From Ruminiclostridium cellulolyticum H10 (lineage in GTDB: Bacteria; Bacillota; Clostridia; Acetivibrionales; DSM-1351), in assembly GCF_000022065.1 (NCBI RefSeq), contig NC_011898.1:3103501-3167500 (forward strand): DNA of 64,000 nt. Reading direction: 5' to 3'. The number at the start of each line of letters is the position of its first letter. Within the stretch, counting starts at the first letter, position 1. The notes below the pieces were generated by a model that was given only the letters and a program-made list of their open reading frames with translations, was not told where the DNA came from and did not search any database. Positions 28,763 to 34,997 of the stretch are shown here, piece by piece. The position numbers and the translations under genes were made by a program.

Positions 28763-29501
28763 TTGCCGTGTCCTCCATTGGAAAAAGCTTTGCACCGATT
28801 GTACATGCAATGAATGTGGCTATGATTATTCTCCATCCCCCCGAAACAGCCGAAAAAACAGGCAGCCACTTTATAACCGAGCTTATGAAAATGGCACAGC
28901 TAGCCACAATCAGAGCAGCTTTAGACTTCTTTGCCGCCGGAATTACAAGAGCGATAAACATTGCGTATAGTGCAATTCCCATTGAGTTCTGCAAAGCTTC
29001 GGGTAGTATGGTACAGACTATTGCACCTACTGCGGTACCTGCCGCCCACCCTATATACGGCAGTAATTCCAGCCCTGTCATAAAGGAAAAGGTTATTTCC
29101 TTTTTTTGCATAGCGGCTACAGTAAAGGTTTCATCGGTTATTCCAAAGGACATTATCCACCGTTTATATCCCGGTATACCCTGAACAATTTTCTGGGATA
29201 GTGACAGAGACATGAGCATATATCTGATATTTATAACAAAGGTAGTAATCGTAATTTCAGCAAGACCCGCTCCTGCTATAATCAGGTTTGTACCTGCAAA
29301 CTGTCCCGCCGAAGTGAGGTTTGTCATTGATATTAATATGACTATCCAAACAGGTATTCCTCCCTTTACGGCCATTAGTCCGAAAGTAAACGATACAGGA
29401 AAATACCCCAAGGCTATAGGAATACTCTGCTTTGAACCATCAATAAAATCATGCAATACTGTATGCTTACTATTTACTACTTTCTCTTGCTTAGTTAACA
29501 T
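28755..29501 (-). CDS. azlC: AzlC-type branched-chain amino acid exporter large subunit
   Basis: Protein of 248 aa with six to seven membrane helices; the N-terminal pattern SIPIALGYFPVSFTFGLMAVKGGIP and the middle TNLTSAGQFAGTNLI and ITDETF are those of AzlC permeases. With AzlD it exports branched-chain amino acids. ATG 29501 has AAAGGAT upstream. No AzlB-type regulator gene is adjacent. Confidence 0.93.
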   Translation of the reverse strand: MLTKQEKVVNSKHTVLHDFIDGSKQSIPIALGYFPVSFTFGLMAVKGGIPVWIVILISMTNLTSAGQFAGTNLIIAGAGLAEITITTFVINIRYMLMSLSLSQKIVQGIPGYKRWIMSFGITDETFTVAAMQKKEITFSFMTGLELLPYIGWAAGTAVGAIVCTILPEALQNSMGIALYAMFIALVIPAAKKSKAALIVASCAIFISSVIKWLPVFSAVSGGWRIIIATFIACTIGAKLFPMEDTAND

Positions 29502-29633
29502 TTCAACTATCCTTTTTGATTTTTATGAATTAACAACAAATAGTATTATAACATACCAAGGGCTGTTAACTCATAAAAAAACTCTTACCCCGGTTTAAAT
29601 GAGTAAGAGTATAAAAGCTTAACCAATCTATAA

Positions 29634-29918
29634 TTATGATATTTTCCTTAATTTAATTTGACTTAGTACAATTTCAAATATACCTCCAAATGTAGAAAAT
29701 TTGCCGTTGGCAATTTCCTCTTGAGGAATTGTAATATTGAATTGACTCTTTACATCAAAGTATATGTATAGCAAATCTCTAGCGGATAGCTGTATGTCTT
29801 CTCCTAAAAGATTTTTAGTATAATAATCCTTGTCCCATTTGGTAAAATCAATATTAAACCTTTGATTAAAAATATTTAAAAGTCCTTCTTTTATATTATC
29901 TGACACTAAATTATCCAT
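29634..29918 (-). CDS. Acyl-carrier-related protein of a peptide maturation system
   Basis: Protein of 94 aa. Its length, helical pattern and the segment LLGEDIQLSARDLLYIYFDVKSQF recall an acyl carrier protein. The usual Ser attachment motif DSL is replaced by LSARDL, where Ser is near residue 45 without the canonical Asp before it, so phosphopantetheine attachment is doubtful. It corresponds in position and character to TIGR04069 (acyl carrier-related protein of peptide maturation systems); this is family recall. ATG 29918 has AAGGAG 9 nt upstream. Last gene of the RiPP operon, 14 nt after the TIGR04066-like gene. Confidence 0.75.
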   Translation of the reverse strand: MDNLVSDNIKEGLLNIFNQRFNIDFTKWDKDYYTKNLLGEDIQLSARDLLYIYFDVKSQFNITIPQEEIANGKFSTFGGIFEIVLSQIKLRKIS

Positions 29919-29932
29919 AGTAAGTTTCTCCT

Positions 29933-31060
29933 TTATACTATCTGTACGCTACCGTACCCTGTAAGTTTTTCTATAGTTTGTTTCGCAATAGTATCGGAAT
30001 CATCTTTATTTAGAATATTAAATACGGGTATTTTGCTTTTGGTATATTTAGTTTTCTTTTCATCAATAAACTTGTAATCCAAAGAAGTATAAGACTTCAC
30101 ATGTTCCTGATTTGCTCTTTTCCAATCGAATTGCATGTTTGCAATGTTGAAGAAATCAACCTCAAATCCAAGCTTATATTTGACCAAATTCATATACGTA
30201 TCAAATCCCTCAGGCTTATAATCTTCATACAGCAGGCTGGCTATTACAACATCCGGAGTTATGGCCTGTGAGATTTCAAAGGCAACCAAGCCGAATTTGT
30301 TTGTAAACTCCCTGTTAAACGGCATTATGCCCCCGGGTATTCCGATAATTATTATATCGGGCTCCTCGGTCTCTTCAATTTTTTTAATAAACCTATTGAA
30401 CATCAATACTTTATTGACATCAGAAATAGCATTTCCATACATAAACGAAGGAAAGGGATGGAACCCCATCATTTCACAGTACGGCCTGGTACCTATCTGA
30501 CTTATTTTATATCCTGCTTTTTGAATTTTTTCTCTTAGTGCGAGCTGGATTTCAAATTTATTCGTTTTTTCAGTTATTCCAAGCGTCAAAATAACGGGTG
30601 TGTCTATTTCTTCTATACTTTCGTTCTCAATGATTATGTCCGCAGGCAGAACATTCTGATTTCCATCAAAATACTTGAAATACACTCCCTCACAATTACA
30701 CAAAGACGCTATTTCTTTAATTGCCTCTTTATTCAAATTTAATAAACATATTATGTTTTTTTTGGACCTTACTGCCACTTTAATTTTATTAAATATATAT
30801 TTATCAAAATCAAAAGGTAGATGTGATTCAACAATCATTACTGTATCACATAAGTCCAGTGATTTTTCAAAATCCGCGGATACCGAGATACCTATATCTG
30901 GTCCACTATCTGCAATACCTGCATCTTTTCCTGTAAAACCCCATCCATTTGGCGATACAAGGCATGATATGTCATATTCCGTAAGTAAAGACCTGTGCCT
31001 TAATACCGGAGTAAATTCCACATTGTACGGATAAATCAGAAGTCTTTCATTTTTCCCCAT
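29933..31060 (-). CDS. Peptide maturation system protein, TIGR04066-like
   Basis: Protein of 375 aa, soluble. It begins MGKNERLLIYPYNVEFTPVLRHRSLL and contains PVILTLGITEKTNKFEIQLALREKI and IIIGIPGGIMPFNREFTNKFG, a nucleotide-binding-like alpha/beta pattern. This matches the TIGR04066 family, found beside CcpM-type radical SAM enzymes and CLI_3235-type precursors in clostridia (family recall); its reaction is unknown. ATG 31060 is chosen over ATG 31090 because GGAGGGGG ends 5 nt before it. Middle of the RiPP operon, 26 nt after the maturase gene. Confidence 0.8.
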   Translation of the reverse strand: MGKNERLLIYPYNVEFTPVLRHRSLLTEYDISCLVSPNGWGFTGKDAGIADSGPDIGISVSADFEKSLDLCDTVMIVESHLPFDFDKYIFNKIKVAVRSKKNIICLLNLNKEAIKEIASLCNCEGVYFKYFDGNQNVLPADIIIENESIEEIDTPVILTLGITEKTNKFEIQLALREKIQKAGYKISQIGTRPYCEMMGFHPFPSFMYGNAISDVNKVLMFNRFIKKIEETEEPDIIIIGIPGGIMPFNREFTNKFGLVAFEISQAITPDVVIASLLYEDYKPEGFDTYMNLVKYKLGFEVDFFNIANMQFDWKRANQEHVKSYTSLDYKFIDEKKTKYTKSKIPVFNILNKDDSDTIAKQTIEKLTGYGSVQIV

Positions 31061-31086
31061 GTTAACCCCCTCCATTATTACAGCTT

Positions 31087-32547
31087 TCATTCCGCCATAT
31101 CGAAAGCATAAATTTCTTCGCCTAATTCAGCCCCAAATTCCCTTAAAGTACAAATATCCTTTAATATACTATCAGCTGTGTATATTACATTACTACATCT
31201 TGAAACCTTTTTTTCCGTTGACAGTCCATCGTTTTCATCTGCTGCTACTGCACATAAATTACAAAAGGTAAGTGCCCAACAGTTTATACACTTATTTTCA
31301 CTTATTTTCCCTATATTTAGCAAAGTCCTTATTTTATCAATATTAAAACCATCATCTATATTTCCTACTTTCATTTGCGGCGACGCTTCACTAACCCTTT
31401 CACAAGGGTAAAAATTACCCTCAACATCCACGAACAGTCTTTGAGCCCCAGGTACGCATGGTCCTCCATGATGAACTTTATCAGGTATCTCCTGTCTCAT
31501 TTGCAATAGTCTGTATCTAGTCTTTCTGTCGTTGTATTGCCTCGATAGTAGTTTTGATGTATATTTCTCATCCAGATAACCAAGCTTTGATAAAAATATT
31601 TTGAAAATTTCATATTCAATTTCAGAAATATAATTTCCAGATGTTTTTACAGAATCTTTTCTGTATAAATCAGTTATTTCTGAAGCCATAATGCTTGCTT
31701 CTTTTGCTAATTCAAAACCAGTAAAAAAATTATTTACACAGCTAAACTCATTCTGCGGATCTAATACAGCATTAAAAGCAATATTAGTACTTAAATAATC
31801 AGGAAATTTAGTTTTAATCATCTCCAAGTTTTCCATTACTTTTTCAAAAGTCCCTTTAGCACCATCTCTATATACCCTATTTCTGTTATGTACCTCAGAA
31901 GAGCCATCAAGACTTATTAGCAAATGTACATTATGCTTATGAAAATAATCTACAATCTCTTCAGTTAAAAGGGTTGCATTTGTTGTCAAGTTTAAGTGAA
32001 TATTTTTTCCCTCTGCTTTTTCTTCAAAGTACTCAATGCAATCTTTTATGAACTCAAATTCAAGCAGTGGCTCACCCCCATAGAATGCCAAGAAGCTATG
32101 CTCATTATCTTTTGAATGCTCAATATAAAAATCTATTCCCTTTCTGGCTGTATCAAGAGTCATTTTCCCACTTGAATGAACCCTATTTTCATAATTTCCA
32201 GAGTAAACGCAGTATTTGCACCTGAGATTACATTGCTTTGTTATTTGCAGTGTAATCATATTAACTTTATTATTGAGGTGGCTTAAAATCGTATCATTTA
32301 CAGGATGGTACATTTCCTTTGGTCTTTTTTCTGATAAGAAACCTAAATCACGCAAATGATTAATTGACTCTATAGCTTGTGCACTGAATTCCGAGGTGCA
32401 TTTATCGGCATCATCACTTTTTCTATAGTAATCGAGTATCTTGTATTGTTCTTCTGATAAGCCAAGAATCACGTTTTTATTGACATCATACAAATAATGC
32501 CCTCCAGGAGTTTTAAACAGGTGTATGAAAGAATCCAAAACTATCAC
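31087..32547 (-). CDS. ccpM: Cys-rich peptide radical SAM maturase (CcpM-like, SPASM domain)
   Basis: Protein of 486 aa. Residues 1-85 look like a RiPP recognition element (peptide-binding winged helix). The radical SAM core starts with CNLRCKYC (Cys106, 110, 113) and has GGEPLLEF. The C-terminal SPASM region holds Cys in GGPCVPG, FYPCERV, KCINCW and FCNLC, ligands for auxiliary 4Fe-4S clusters. Such enzymes install thioether or other cross-links on the Cys-rich precursor. The start is uncertain: GTG 32547 lies only 2 nt after GGAGG, TTG 32538 lies 11 nt after. It follows the precursor gene after a terminator hairpin, so partial read-through is expected. Confidence 0.9.
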   Translation of the reverse strand: MIVLDSFIHLFKTPGGHYLYDVNKNVILGLSEEQYKILDYYRKSDDADKCTSEFSAQAIESINHLRDLGFLSEKRPKEMYHPVNDTILSHLNNKVNMITLQITKQCNLRCKYCVYSGNYENRVHSSGKMTLDTARKGIDFYIEHSKDNEHSFLAFYGGEPLLEFEFIKDCIEYFEEKAEGKNIHLNLTTNATLLTEEIVDYFHKHNVHLLISLDGSSEVHNRNRVYRDGAKGTFEKVMENLEMIKTKFPDYLSTNIAFNAVLDPQNEFSCVNNFFTGFELAKEASIMASEITDLYRKDSVKTSGNYISEIEYEIFKIFLSKLGYLDEKYTSKLLSRQYNDRKTRYRLLQMRQEIPDKVHHGGPCVPGAQRLFVDVEGNFYPCERVSEASPQMKVGNIDDGFNIDKIRTLLNIGKISENKCINCWALTFCNLCAVAADENDGLSTEKKVSRCSNVIYTADSILKDICTLREFGAELGEEIYAFDMAE

Positions 32548-32565
32548 TTCCTCCTTATTAATTAA

Positions 32566-32603
32566 AAATAACCGGAATATAGACTGTATTCCGGTTATTT
32601 TTT
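32566..32603 (-). terminator. Terminator between RiPP precursor and maturase genes
   Basis: Perfect 14-bp arms (AAATAACCGGAATA at 32566-32579, TATTCCGGTTATTT at 32587-32600), loop of 7 nt, T/A-runs on both sides. Probably a leaky terminator that keeps precursor mRNA in excess. Confidence 0.85.
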
Positions 32604-32626
32604 AGCATGAGCTACCAACAAACTAG

Positions 32627-32788
32627 TTACATATTATTATTCACAAAGTTTCTGACATTTGCCATAAGATTCACCATAGCACTGGTATTCCCGCAGGCAC
32701 TATAATCACAGTGACAATAACTATAACAATCGGCGTATGCCTCTATAGTCCCCTGATAACTATGTAGTTTTTTACCTAATTTTTTCAT
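32627..32788 (-). CDS. Cys-rich RiPP precursor, CLI_3235-family bacteriocin-like
   Basis: Peptide of 53 aa. Basic leader (MKKLGKK), then GTIEAYADCYSYCHCDYSAC with four Cys at positions 21, 25, 27 and 32, followed by a Cys-free Asn/Val/Met-rich tail. The GxTIEAYA stretch just before the cysteines is a hallmark of the CLI_3235 bacteriocin precursor class (TIGR04065, from family recall). ATG 32788 is chosen because GAGGTGAGGAT directly precedes it; the longer upstream frame has no ribosome site. Substrate of the adjacent radical SAM enzyme (inference). No exporter, protease or immunity gene is adjacent. Confidence 0.88.
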   Translation of the reverse strand: MKKLGKKLHSYQGTIEAYADCYSYCHCDYSACGNTSAMVNLMANVRNFVNNNM

Positions 32789-32824
32789 ATCCTCACCTCG
32801 CTTTCGTATATACAGACTTATTAA

Positions 32825-32886
32825 ACAAGGTCTGACTTTATTTAAACTCATTGAGCTTTACCGCGGATAAACCTTGTGAGTTTAAA
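32825..32886 (-). promoter_or_regulatory. Interleaved inverted repeats in the precursor leader
   Basis: Two perfect inverted pairs cross each other: ACAAGGT (32825-32831) with ACCTTGT (32871-32877), and TTTAAACTCA (32841-32850) with TGAGTTTAAA (32877-32886). The crossing order allows a pseudoknot or two alternative stems. It lies 37 nt before the precursor ATG. Confidence 0.5.
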
Positions 32887-33023
32887 ACTAATTTAAACTG
32901 TACCATTCGCAAGCAAGAAATCTATATAAGGAATTATGATTATATGAGTATCTGTAGAAAATAACATTATGGCTTAATATTTTTACTTTATTTGTAAAAT
33001 TATGAAAATGTTGTTTTAATATT

Positions 33024-33052
33024 AATATATATCTATATCCATAATTTGTCAA
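33024..33052 (-). promoter_or_regulatory. Sigma-A promoter of the RiPP operon
   Basis: Minus strand TTGACA (33052-33047), 17-bp spacer, TATATT (33029-33024). It predicts a leader of about 230 nt before the precursor ATG. Confidence 0.6.
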
Positions 33053-33072
33053 ATATTAATTTTAAATACTAA

Positions 33073-33113
33073 AAGGCATATCAAGAACCCAAAGCAGGAA
33101 CTTGACATGCCTT
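33073..33113 (-). terminator. Terminator of the AIM24-like gene
   Basis: AAGGCATATCAAG (33073-33085) pairs with CTTGACATGCCTT (33101-33113) with one mismatch; on the minus strand TTTTAG follows. Confidence 0.7.
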
Positions 33114-33148
33114 CATTATTTATAAAAAATATATTTATGATTTATAAC

Positions 33149-33919
33149 TTAAAACTTATTATCTCCCCCAAAGAGTCCTCCCAGAATACCGCCTCCAAGG
33201 CCTGCAACACCAGATTGCTGGTCACGATGGCGTGCTCCTGCGGATGTAAGTCTATCTGACAATCTGGCAAGTGGCAGGCTCTGAAGGAATACAATACCGG
33301 GGCCTGTCAGTTTTGCAAGGAATAGTCCCTCTCCGCCAAACAGGGCATTTTTAAAGCCTCTCACTGACTCGATATCATAGTCTACGCTTGGTGAGAAAGC
33401 AACCAGACATCCTGTGTCAACTCTCAATGTTTCACCGGGAAGAAGGTTTTTCTGAATAATTGTTCCCCCTGAATGGACAAAAGCCAATCCGTCGCCAACC
33501 AACCTTTGGAGAATAAAACCCTCTCCCCCAAAGAAACCTGCACCAAGCTTTCTGGTAAAAGCTATCTCTATGTCTACTCCGCTGGCAGCACACAAGAATG
33601 AATCTTTTTGGCACAGAAAGTTACCTCCCAGTCGTGATAAATCCAATGGTATTATCTTCCCGGGGTAAGGTGCTGAAAATGCAACGTGCTGTTTTGAAGC
33701 ACCCGCATTGTAAAAAGTAGTGATAAAGAAGCTTTCTCCAGTAAGCATTCTCTTGAAACCCTTAAAAGCTCCTCCATCGGTGGAAGTCTGCATCATTATG
33801 TCATCTTCCATATACATCATTGCTCCCGCTTCAGCCCTGACGCCTTCGGATGGGTCCAATTCAATCTCCACTATCTGCATATCGTCCCCATAAATTTTAT
33901 AATCTATAACGTCTGCCAT
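33149..33919 (-). CDS. AIM24 / TIGR00266 family protein
   Basis: Protein of 256 aa, rich in glycine, of the tryptophan-RNA-binding-attenuator-like beta fold family TIGR00266 (AIM24). Visible marks: [31 protein letters not shown], and twice a GGEG(F/L)(I/F)L(Q/A)(R/K)L(V/T)G(D/P)G segment (about 130-145 and 195-210). The C-terminus is a Gly/Leu-rich tail. Function in bacteria is unknown; it is soluble here. ATG 33919 has GGGAGG 5 nt upstream. Monocistronic. Confidence 0.9.
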
Positions 33920-33980
33920 ATTAACCTCCCAAATTTATATTACTTTATTTAGATACAATATAATACGTTTTAAATAAATA

Positions 33981-34997
33981 TTAGTCTGTTCTTTTTACCC
34001 ACTGTGAGTATGGAACTGAATATTTGGCCGCCAGAAGTATCGCCTCTGACATACTTATCTCACTGGCAATCCCCTTTCCTGCAATATCATAGGCAGTTCC
34101 ATGGTCAACGGATGTTCTCAGGAACGGAAGCCCTAAGGTAATAGCTATTGTTCTTTCAAAGTCCAATGTTTTTGTAGCTATGTGCCCCTGATCATGATAT
34201 AGGGACAATACCGAATTGTATCTGCCTATTAATGCAAGATGGAACACAGAGTCCGGGCCTACAGGCCCTTCCACGTTAAAGCCACGTCTTTTGGCCTCAA
34301 CAATTGCAGGAGTAATGTTTTCACATTCTTCTACTCCGAAAAGACCATTGTCGCCACTGTGAGGATTTAAACCCGCCACAGCCATTGTCCCCCCTGTTAT
34401 TCCAAGGCTTTGCAAAGCTTGTGTGCATCTTTCCACGTAATCTAGTAATCTTTCCTTAGTCACCATATCACAAGCCTTCCTCAGAGATACGTGGCGGGTA
34501 AGAAAAAATACTCTCATTCCCCTGACTTCAAACATAGTAAGGGGGTCTTTTGTGTCTGTTAGTCCGGCAAGTATTTCCGTATGGCCGATAAACTCTATTC
34601 CAGCCGCTTTTAGTGAAGGCTTGTTTATAGGGGTTGTTGCTATTGCAGAAAGTTTTCCTTCCATTGCGAGCTCCACACTCTTTTTTATGTACTCGAAGGA
34701 AGCCCGGCCATTTTCCGCCTGAACCTTGCCGTATTCCAAACGGTCAGGATTAATTATTTTTAAATCCACTACGTTTATAGTACTTTTGTCTGAAGCTGGC
34801 ATGTCCGCCCCTGCTACTGGATTGACCTTTGTTTGTATACCGCATATCCGGGCTGCCTTTTCAATCACTCCGGCATCACCTATTACCAATGGATTGCATA
34901 CTTTGTATATTTCATTATTTGCCAGTGCTTTTACAATTATCTCGGGACCTATTCCGGCAGGGTCACCCATTGGAATCCCGATTACGGGTTTATGCAT
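33981..34997 (-). CDS. pdxA: PdxA family 4-phospho-hydroxythreonine dehydrogenase
   Basis: Protein of 338 aa. [15 protein letters not shown] at the N-terminus and the metal-binding histidines in [18 protein letters not shown] and LYHDQGH are those of PdxA. PdxA oxidises 4-phosphohydroxy-L-threonine in the DXP-dependent vitamin B6 pathway; the PdxA2 subgroup instead degrades 4-hydroxythreonate or erythronate. No pdxJ, pdxB or kinase gene is near, and most clostridia use PdxST, so the catabolic role is possible. ATG 34997 has AGGAGGGG 5 nt upstream. Confidence 0.9.

Follow-up and report, generated by a model that had tools for sequence, protein, structure and literature searches.

A cysteine-rich RiPP locus of Ruminiclostridium cellulolyticum H10 with a deleted exporter gene and two putative helper proteins of altered active site

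How would the product of a cysteine-rich RiPP (ribosomally synthesized and post-translationally modified peptide) locus be trimmed, and where would it go, when no exporter or protease gene lies beside it? This question is raised by a four-gene locus in a 64,000-nucleotide stretch of the Ruminiclostridium cellulolyticum H10 contig (the window; all coordinates are positions within it unless stated), which the original prediction had described as compact and lacking exporter, protease and immunity genes nearby. The H10 genome is one contig of 4,068,724 bases and is termed G000; other G numbers denote genomes, L numbers denote loci, and the locus under study is called the window locus. The dedicated ABC (ATP-binding cassette) exporter of this locus was deleted, leaving a scar. 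What remains is a CcpM-family cysteine-rich RiPP system whose peptide, most likely of sactipeptide type with thioethers from cysteine to alpha-carbon, would be made and trimmed in the cell and then either stay there or be carried out by some unrelated transporter. The features of the locus are as follows, the cut-offs being the curated NCBIfam values in bits.

32627..32788, minus strand: precursor peptide of 53 amino acids with conserved leader and four-cysteine core (TIGR04065, 62.7 bits, cut-off 26)
31087..32547, minus strand: CcpM radical SAM (S-adenosylmethionine)/SPASM peptide maturase of 486 amino acids with a GTG start (TIGR04068, 660 bits, cut-off 500; PF04055)
29933..31090, minus strand: TIGR04066 protein of 385 amino acids, DUF1611 fold with degenerate P-loop (N177) (497.3 bits, cut-off 200; best fold matches 2g0t and 2obn)
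29634..29918, minus strand: TIGR04069 protein of 94 amino acids, acyl-carrier fold without the carrier serine (A46) (119.8 bits, cut-off 70; AlphaFold model, best PDB matches carrier proteins)
32564..32599, minus strand: hairpin with T-run between precursor and maturase genes, a possible partial terminator (RNA fold z-score)
32893..32967, minus strand: vestige of the ABC exporter gene, 24 codons (blastn to L059 and L060)
33024..33052, minus strand: promoter-like site TTGACA-17-TATATT, formerly ahead of the exporter and now of the precursor operon (promoter scan; alignment to L059 and L060)

Evidence for the deletion came from comparison with L059 of the sister species G021. Positions 29000-32929 align at 87% to L059 7037-11001, reaching the last 37 bases of the exporter gene, and positions 32948-33061 align at 72.5% (blastn) to its first codons and upstream region; approximately 1.66 kb of L059 between both exporter ends is absent from the window. 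At 32967-32893 the exporter start and first codons are joined in frame to its last codons and stop, forming the vestige of 24 codons. The gene content given in the original prediction stands, and the compactness of the locus is traced to exporter deletion and not to a system working without exporter by design. The exporter is intact at the syntenic place in two sister species (G021 and G019) and absent there in G020; in G022 precursor and maturase were lost from this place, and G024 has a related locus, differently placed, with a broken exporter (147 and 261 amino acids) beside it. When three flanking genes were used for a tree, G000 grouped with G019 (support 0.976) and G021 with G022 (0.963), which suggests separate losses in G000, G020 and G022 if vertical inheritance is assumed. 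A functional-size exporter remnant in the window was rejected, since tblastn with the L059 exporter (E < 1e-3) gave only four partial matches of about 190-205 residues to the ATP-binding part, none at the locus.

All four proteins exceed the NCBIfam cut-offs at the positions and on the strand originally assigned, and chance is excluded as the source of such a four-family match. The window locus is a further member of the already known CLI_3235/CcpM/TIGR04066/TIGR04069 RiPP system, the family set that the original prediction had named; what is new is how it came to lack its exporter, which is unusual, and an interpretation of two of the family proteins that can be put to the test. The genes follow the operon order precursor, CcpM, TIGR04066, TIGR04069 (29634-32788, minus strand). 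The four cysteines said to lie within 12 residues of the precursor were found as CYSYCHCDYSAC, after TIEAYAD. The CxxxCxxC motif of the maturase was located to cysteines 106, 110 and 113, and its Cys-rich end to seven cysteines from 364 to 451, although the Pfam SPASM model scored 16.6 against a gathering score of 21.5.

Could another H10 transporter replace the lost one? Loci in other genomes frequently include an ABC exporter: an ABC protein of more than 500 amino acids occurs within 3 kb of a core gene in at least 37 of 68 mapped loci, a lower bound as several contigs are short. Subtilases are often found at related loci too (two confirmed by Pfam). Linked exporter and subtilase are frequent but not defining for the CcpM system; neither is present at the window locus, where only the vestige is left, in agreement with the prediction of no exporter or protease nearby. 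No immunity gene was recognised there, a specific model not having been applied. In a tree of 48 ABC proteins, 27 of the 40 cluster-linked ones formed one group (support 100/100), and none of the 8 best H10 matches (8 of 90 were placed) fell inside it; the top H10 match is 28% identical. With the L059 exporter no match was obtained in G000 at E 1e-75. Its matches in G020 and G022 were 29-33% identical and that in the fragmented G023 31% identical, the main type being present in the other seven genomes of the genus. A second exporter type is represented by a G022 protein of L140, which shares 53% identity with the exporter linked to L089 and 49% with that linked to L088. Exporters of this type (at least 64% identical to it, or itself) were identified in G017, G018, G020, G022 and G025, with no match in G000 at E 1e-85. 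G000 is the single genome of at least 99% completeness with neither exporter type.

Some further genes were observed around related transporters and loci. At L140 (1631-5496, G022) the second-type exporter adjoins a 231-amino acid subtilase-like gene, and judged by this neighbourhood it may serve a different peptide pathway. Solute-binding proteins of approximately 860 amino acids stand beside the CcpM loci L065, L068 and L073 (L068 by Pfam, the others by clustering), for which an immunity or sensing role is possible. The lachnocin maturase locus L114 (NF038170, 805 bits) and the similar L115 also encode an ABC protein, as well as a subtilase-like protein whose C-terminal part is TIGR04066-like.

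A candidate for leader removal was found far from the locus. The H10 genome encodes three S8 proteins, one of which (L133 7557-8771; C1 4,011,559-4,012,770) lies about 0.9 Mb from the window locus. This protein keeps its Asp, His and Ser motifs, and over 434 columns it shares 43% identity with the subtilase found next to the L065 clusters. Orthologues flanked by similarly sized genes occur in the four sister species G019-G022, and no match to precursor, maturase or TIGR04069 was seen in the surrounding DNA examined; dN/dS (ratio of nonsynonymous to synonymous divergence) among the five orthologues is 0.14-0.26. Relatives at E 1e-20 are present in 11 of 11 genus genomes, in some by the protease domain only and in G023 cut by a contig end. 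The nearest NCBIfam family is QhpE (93.4 bits, below the cut-off of 165). QhpE is a cytosolic protease that cuts off a leader once a radical SAM enzyme has introduced thioethers, and does so before ABC export (PMC7876137). Based on the family likeness, the genus-wide retention and the QhpE parallel, the L133 subtilase most likely serves all three CcpM loci of H10.

These three loci over the CcpM cut-off (profile search) are the window locus, L019 and L020; an exporter accompanies none of them. At each of them TIGR04066 and a TIGR04065 precursor are also over cut-off, as is TIGR04069 at two; L020 instead has a 101-amino acid gene without family match. The fourth radical SAM match in the genome is a SCIFF maturase. 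Transposase genes (integrase core, helix-turn-helix) lie immediately upstream of the second CcpM locus (L019 11432-12870). The third (L020 1533-9229) is directly downstream of a mcsA-mcsB-clpC-like row (UVR, ATP:guanido phosphotransferase and Clp domains by Pfam), at the front of which is a gene that we take, from its size and the usual order, to be ctsR. The mcs/clpC-adjacent locus occurs also in four sister species (L087, L090, L092 and L093), and an exporter is absent from the mapped surroundings of all five.

The precursor itself was compared in 61 rows, all of which have the leader and 2 to 9 cysteines in the frame shown, counts which include a few cysteines that belong to the leader or precede it (the window row has one such cysteine). 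Cysteines, whose conservation among homologues the original prediction had singled out for checking, were thus kept in 61 of 61 rows; some likeness is by construction, because the profile that collected the rows had itself been built up from three seed sequences. L062 contributes two identical copies, and L068 and L073 are identical. By eye, the cysteines form mostly one block right after the leader, and the tail behind this block has many Ser, Thr, Asn, Gly and Tyr residues. The syntenic place holds two core types, a four-Cys core (window, with a longer six-Cys form in G021) versus a two-Cys core (G019 and G020). Synonymous divergence between G000 and G021 is 0.21 for the maturase, 0.30 for TIGR04069, 0.55 for TIGR04066 and 0.59 for azlC; the maturase value, lower than those of TIGR04066 and azlC, suggests that precursor and maturase may have been exchanged together between species. 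Among G000, G021 and G024, too, the maturase gene (31087-32788 region) shows lower synonymous divergence than TIGR04066.

Expression signals were searched in the same region. The site at 33024-33052 was the best (11 of 12 positions) of 21 promoter-like matches in 29500-33200, against an average of 18.5 in shuffled sequence, and its counterpart in the L059 and L060 alignments lies ahead of the start of the exporter gene. The RNA fold of 32540-32640 has a z-score of -3.4 versus shuffles, and the hairpin palindrome matches also, in inverted orientation, in L059, L060, L061 and L063. A simple terminator scan of the region did not list the hairpin at 32564..32599, and Rfam gave 0 matches at gathering score in 29000-34000.

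What the two accompanying proteins might do was approached through their folds. The TIGR04066 model (pLDDT, predicted local distance difference test, 77.0) has a two-domain DUF1611 fold: the first Foldseek matches were the DUF1611 proteins 2g0t and 2obn (best E 2.5e-11, 2g0t), with TM (template modelling) scores on the query of 0.55-0.61, root mean square deviations of 5.2-7.2 and identities of 12-14% over six chains. The third distinct PDB entry was DgcN (7xrj), titled N-acetyltransferase. A direct TIGR04066 profile search of the PDB returned nothing (best E 0.41), so the DUF1611 link rests on the fold and on fused relatives. In the subtilase fusion L113 the C-terminal part matches TIGR04066 at 6.4e-20, and L112, 43% identical to L113, matches the PF07755 DUF1611_C P-loop at 2.8e-8. 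Profile comparison of TIGR04066 with three fusions (98.9% probability) aligned GTSSKQGKFT to GITEKTNKFE. A PDB search with the fused relatives (A5) gave subtilisin-type proteases as the best 60 of 102 matches. A Walker A motif GxxxxGK is absent from the window TIGR04066 protein, in which the Gly column is N177. In an alignment of 93 proteins, which includes ordinary subtilases, GK was present at the P-loop column in only seven, from L089 (2), L100, L101 (2), L112 and L113, all below the TIGR04066 cut-off. A home-made TIGR04066 profile drifted in iteration through fused subtilases and was not used as evidence on ordinary subtilases, whose C-terminal part might, from the alignment, conceivably be related to TIGR04066.

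The TIGR04069 protein (AlphaFold model, pLDDT 92.6) has a carrier fold: 39 of the titles of its best 50 PDB matches name acyl or other carrier proteins, the other 11 being PltL and large-complex chains, with TM scores on the query of 0.56-0.75 and none below E 0.001. The phosphopantetheine serine is replaced by A46. Over 62 rows this column holds P in 32, A in 14, S in 8 and others in 8, which bears out the original description of an acyl-carrier-like protein without a clear Ser site (54 of 62 rows are not Ser). The eight Ser rows are L100, L101, L112 and L113, beside intact P-loops, L030 and L019, ordinary-looking carriers, and the close pair L068/L073, which speaks against a strict P-loop/Ser rule. 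Of the five loci with intact P-loop, four have their own carrier nearby and Ser is kept in all four; for L089 only the TIGR04069 of an adjoining cluster was found. We tentatively consider, though with less than even confidence, that TIGR04066 and TIGR04069 may derive from an acyl-transfer module that is now dead, made up of a P-loop enzyme of DUF1611 type and the acyl carrier protein belonging to it. The two active sites would have been lost jointly at the origin of the CcpM family, and the proteins would now be a non-catalytic precursor-handling pair, with living versions that keep P-loop and carrier Ser beside other radical SAM proteins (L100, L101, L112 and L113).

As to the surroundings of the intact forms, in L100, L112 and L113 a subtilase is joined in one protein to a DUF1611-like domain whose P-loop is intact, and its neighbours are a Ser-bearing carrier and a radical SAM protein from a different family; the radical SAM protein of L112 is nearest to TIGR04463/Clo7bot, below cut-off. 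In L089 (7578-9932) and L101 (5484-7877) a family 2 glycosyltransferase carries a C-terminal TIGR04066-like part with intact P-loop, and each has a second, stand-alone one nearby. TIGR04066 loci are spread across Clostridia and beyond: at E 0.001, matches came from 17 of the 58 genomes that represent the order (16 over cut-off), from 21 of 391 sampled in the class (15 over cut-off) and from 6 of 398 sampled in the phylum (3 over cut-off), sets that overlap and include H10.

A relative of the system, absent from the original prediction, has been shown to be active. SacP23 of Paenibacillus polymyxa #23 derives from a CLI_3235-family precursor in an eight-gene cluster (23sacA-H) and was active when expressed in B. 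subtilis; its mass is 3404, its N-terminus is blocked and its linkages were not determined (PMC10731318). Its cluster has the same four families, but also its own ABC transporter and subtilase, whereas in the window locus the exporter is deleted and the subtilase unlinked. The core also differs, a 61-amino acid P. polymyxa precursor of the same length and computed core mass printed in PMC7343975 having 7 Cys. A role of TIGR04066 in immunity, as an ATPase subunit, was proposed for the SacP23 cluster (PMC10731318); no support for it was found here, and the DUF1611 fold does not point there. A Roseburia cluster has the same gene set including ABC exporter and subtilase (PMC4573289), and CcpM is named only as a previously annotated group in the available part of PMC9062424. 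For strain H10 itself a Ccel_0328 cluster was listed (PMC3132745, PMC4289311), the accessible parts of which do not mention the window locus. This cluster is L020, of the same genome and family, with CcpM, TIGR04066 and a 63-amino acid CLI_3235 precursor (Ccel_0332); the adjacent glycosyl transferase and the motif CNLRCNYC agree, the maturase being 479 amino acids here and 486 in print. It differs from the window locus in chromosomal site, in core and in a diverged carrier-like gene without TIGR04069 match. QhpCDEF, of quinohemoprotein amine dehydrogenase, works in a similar way, with a polypeptide that bears a leader and receives radical SAM thioethers, a subtilase that cuts this leader in the cytosol and an ABC exporter, but belongs to another family and yields an enzyme subunit, the TIGR04066/TIGR04069 pair not being named in the excerpts (PMC7876137). 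Neither the TIGR04066 fold nor the exporter loss is described in the portions available of the literature on related clusters (PMC10731318, PMC4573289, PMC9062424, PMC3132745, PMC4289311, PMC8172795, PMC12363236, PMC7343975).

Put together, the pathway that we consider probable would run as follows. The former exporter promoter would drive precursor, CcpM, TIGR04066 and TIGR04069, and the hairpin after the precursor gene would give more precursor than maturase message. CcpM would recognise the leader (MKKLGKKL...TIEAYA) and, by means of SAM and iron-sulfur clusters, tie the four core cysteines to backbone carbons of residues further along, the TIGR04066 protein (dead P-loop, DUF1611 fold) and the TIGR04069 protein (dead, acyl-carrier-like) acting presumably as non-catalytic helpers that hold or present the precursor. 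The leader would be removed in the cytosol by the subtilase approximately 0.9 Mb away, common to the three H10 loci, and the product would leave via an unrelated transporter or stay inside.

Several observations weigh against parts of this pathway. The main exporter group does not include 13 of the 40 linked ABC proteins, and an H10 transporter from another branch could serve as exporter. G020 and G022, without the main type, do have an unlinked exporter (86% identical to each other); because this second type is present they may export another way and are not proof of dispensable export. Leader cleavage by the distant subtilase is predicted from homology. Selection is also to be considered: in pairs with G000 the maturase has a dN/dS of 0.23-0.34, TIGR04066 one of 0.13-0.21 and TIGR04069 one of 0.19-0.28, compared with 0.24, 0.16 and 0.17 in the exporter-bearing pair G021-G019. 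Purifying selection thus acts on these three intact genes, and relaxation is not evident. The three flanking genes are more constrained (0.04-0.09 with G000, 0.03-0.11 over all pairs), and the constraint on the three locus genes may date from before the exporter loss. The locus might accordingly be decaying, its peptide useless without exporter and its remaining genes intact only through a recent deletion. The broken exporter of G024, the loss of precursor and maturase in G022 and the faster evolution of the three genes relative to their neighbours fit this, as does the position of H10, which is alone among complete genomes, both other complete ones without the main exporter having the second type. 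We nevertheless regard decay as rather unlikely, given that no reading frame is broken and the Cys and cluster residues are retained, that dN/dS is about equal to that of the exporter-bearing pair, and that H10 keeps three loci with CcpM, TIGR04066 and precursor over cut-offs as well as the subtilase.

The cross-links would most likely be of sactipeptide type. After CcpM the nearest NCBIfam family of the maturase is RumMC of ruminococcin C (224.1 bits, far below its cut-off of 720); the lachnocin maturase scores 212.7, and PapB, with 196.6, is among the next best. The PapB match, the presence of a SCIFF maturase in the H10 genome and the close spacing of core cysteines, which leaves donors and acceptors undefined, could be explained by a ranthipeptide-type system with thioethers to a non-alpha, side-chain carbon; this is unlikely, as RumMC and lachnocin maturases outscore PapB and a Cys block followed by a Cys-free tail resembles the hairpin sactipeptides, of which thurincin H is an example with similar arrangement. 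A scan of the SacP23 m/z of 3404 over start, end and cross-link number gave 7 fits within 1 Da, among which neither one cleavage site nor one number of cross-links stood out. An anti-phage role was rejected, PADLOC having given only two viperin models on the radical SAM part of the maturase, which were read as shared fold. It is improbable that the TIGR04066 and TIGR04069 proteins have stayed enzymatic, as a pair with altered active sites that would transfer an acyl or aminoacyl group to the peptide. The DgcN match, the largely kept P-loop Lys and the blocked N-terminus of SacP23 (PMC10731318) would agree with such a pair, but the carrier Ser is missing in 54 of 62 rows, all seven aligned P-loop-Gly proteins are below the TIGR04066 cut-off, and cross-links close to the N-terminus would also block it.

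One product of a TIGR04066 locus, SacP23, is antibacterial (PMC10731318). For the family, the fold and active-site results make of two of the four core genes a testable pseudoenzyme pair. For R. cellulolyticum, an exporter scar with maturation genes and subtilase kept asks whether such a RiPP uses a borrowed transporter or works inside the cell, a question sharpened by a complete genome with neither known exporter type, in a culturable, non-pathogenic bacterium.

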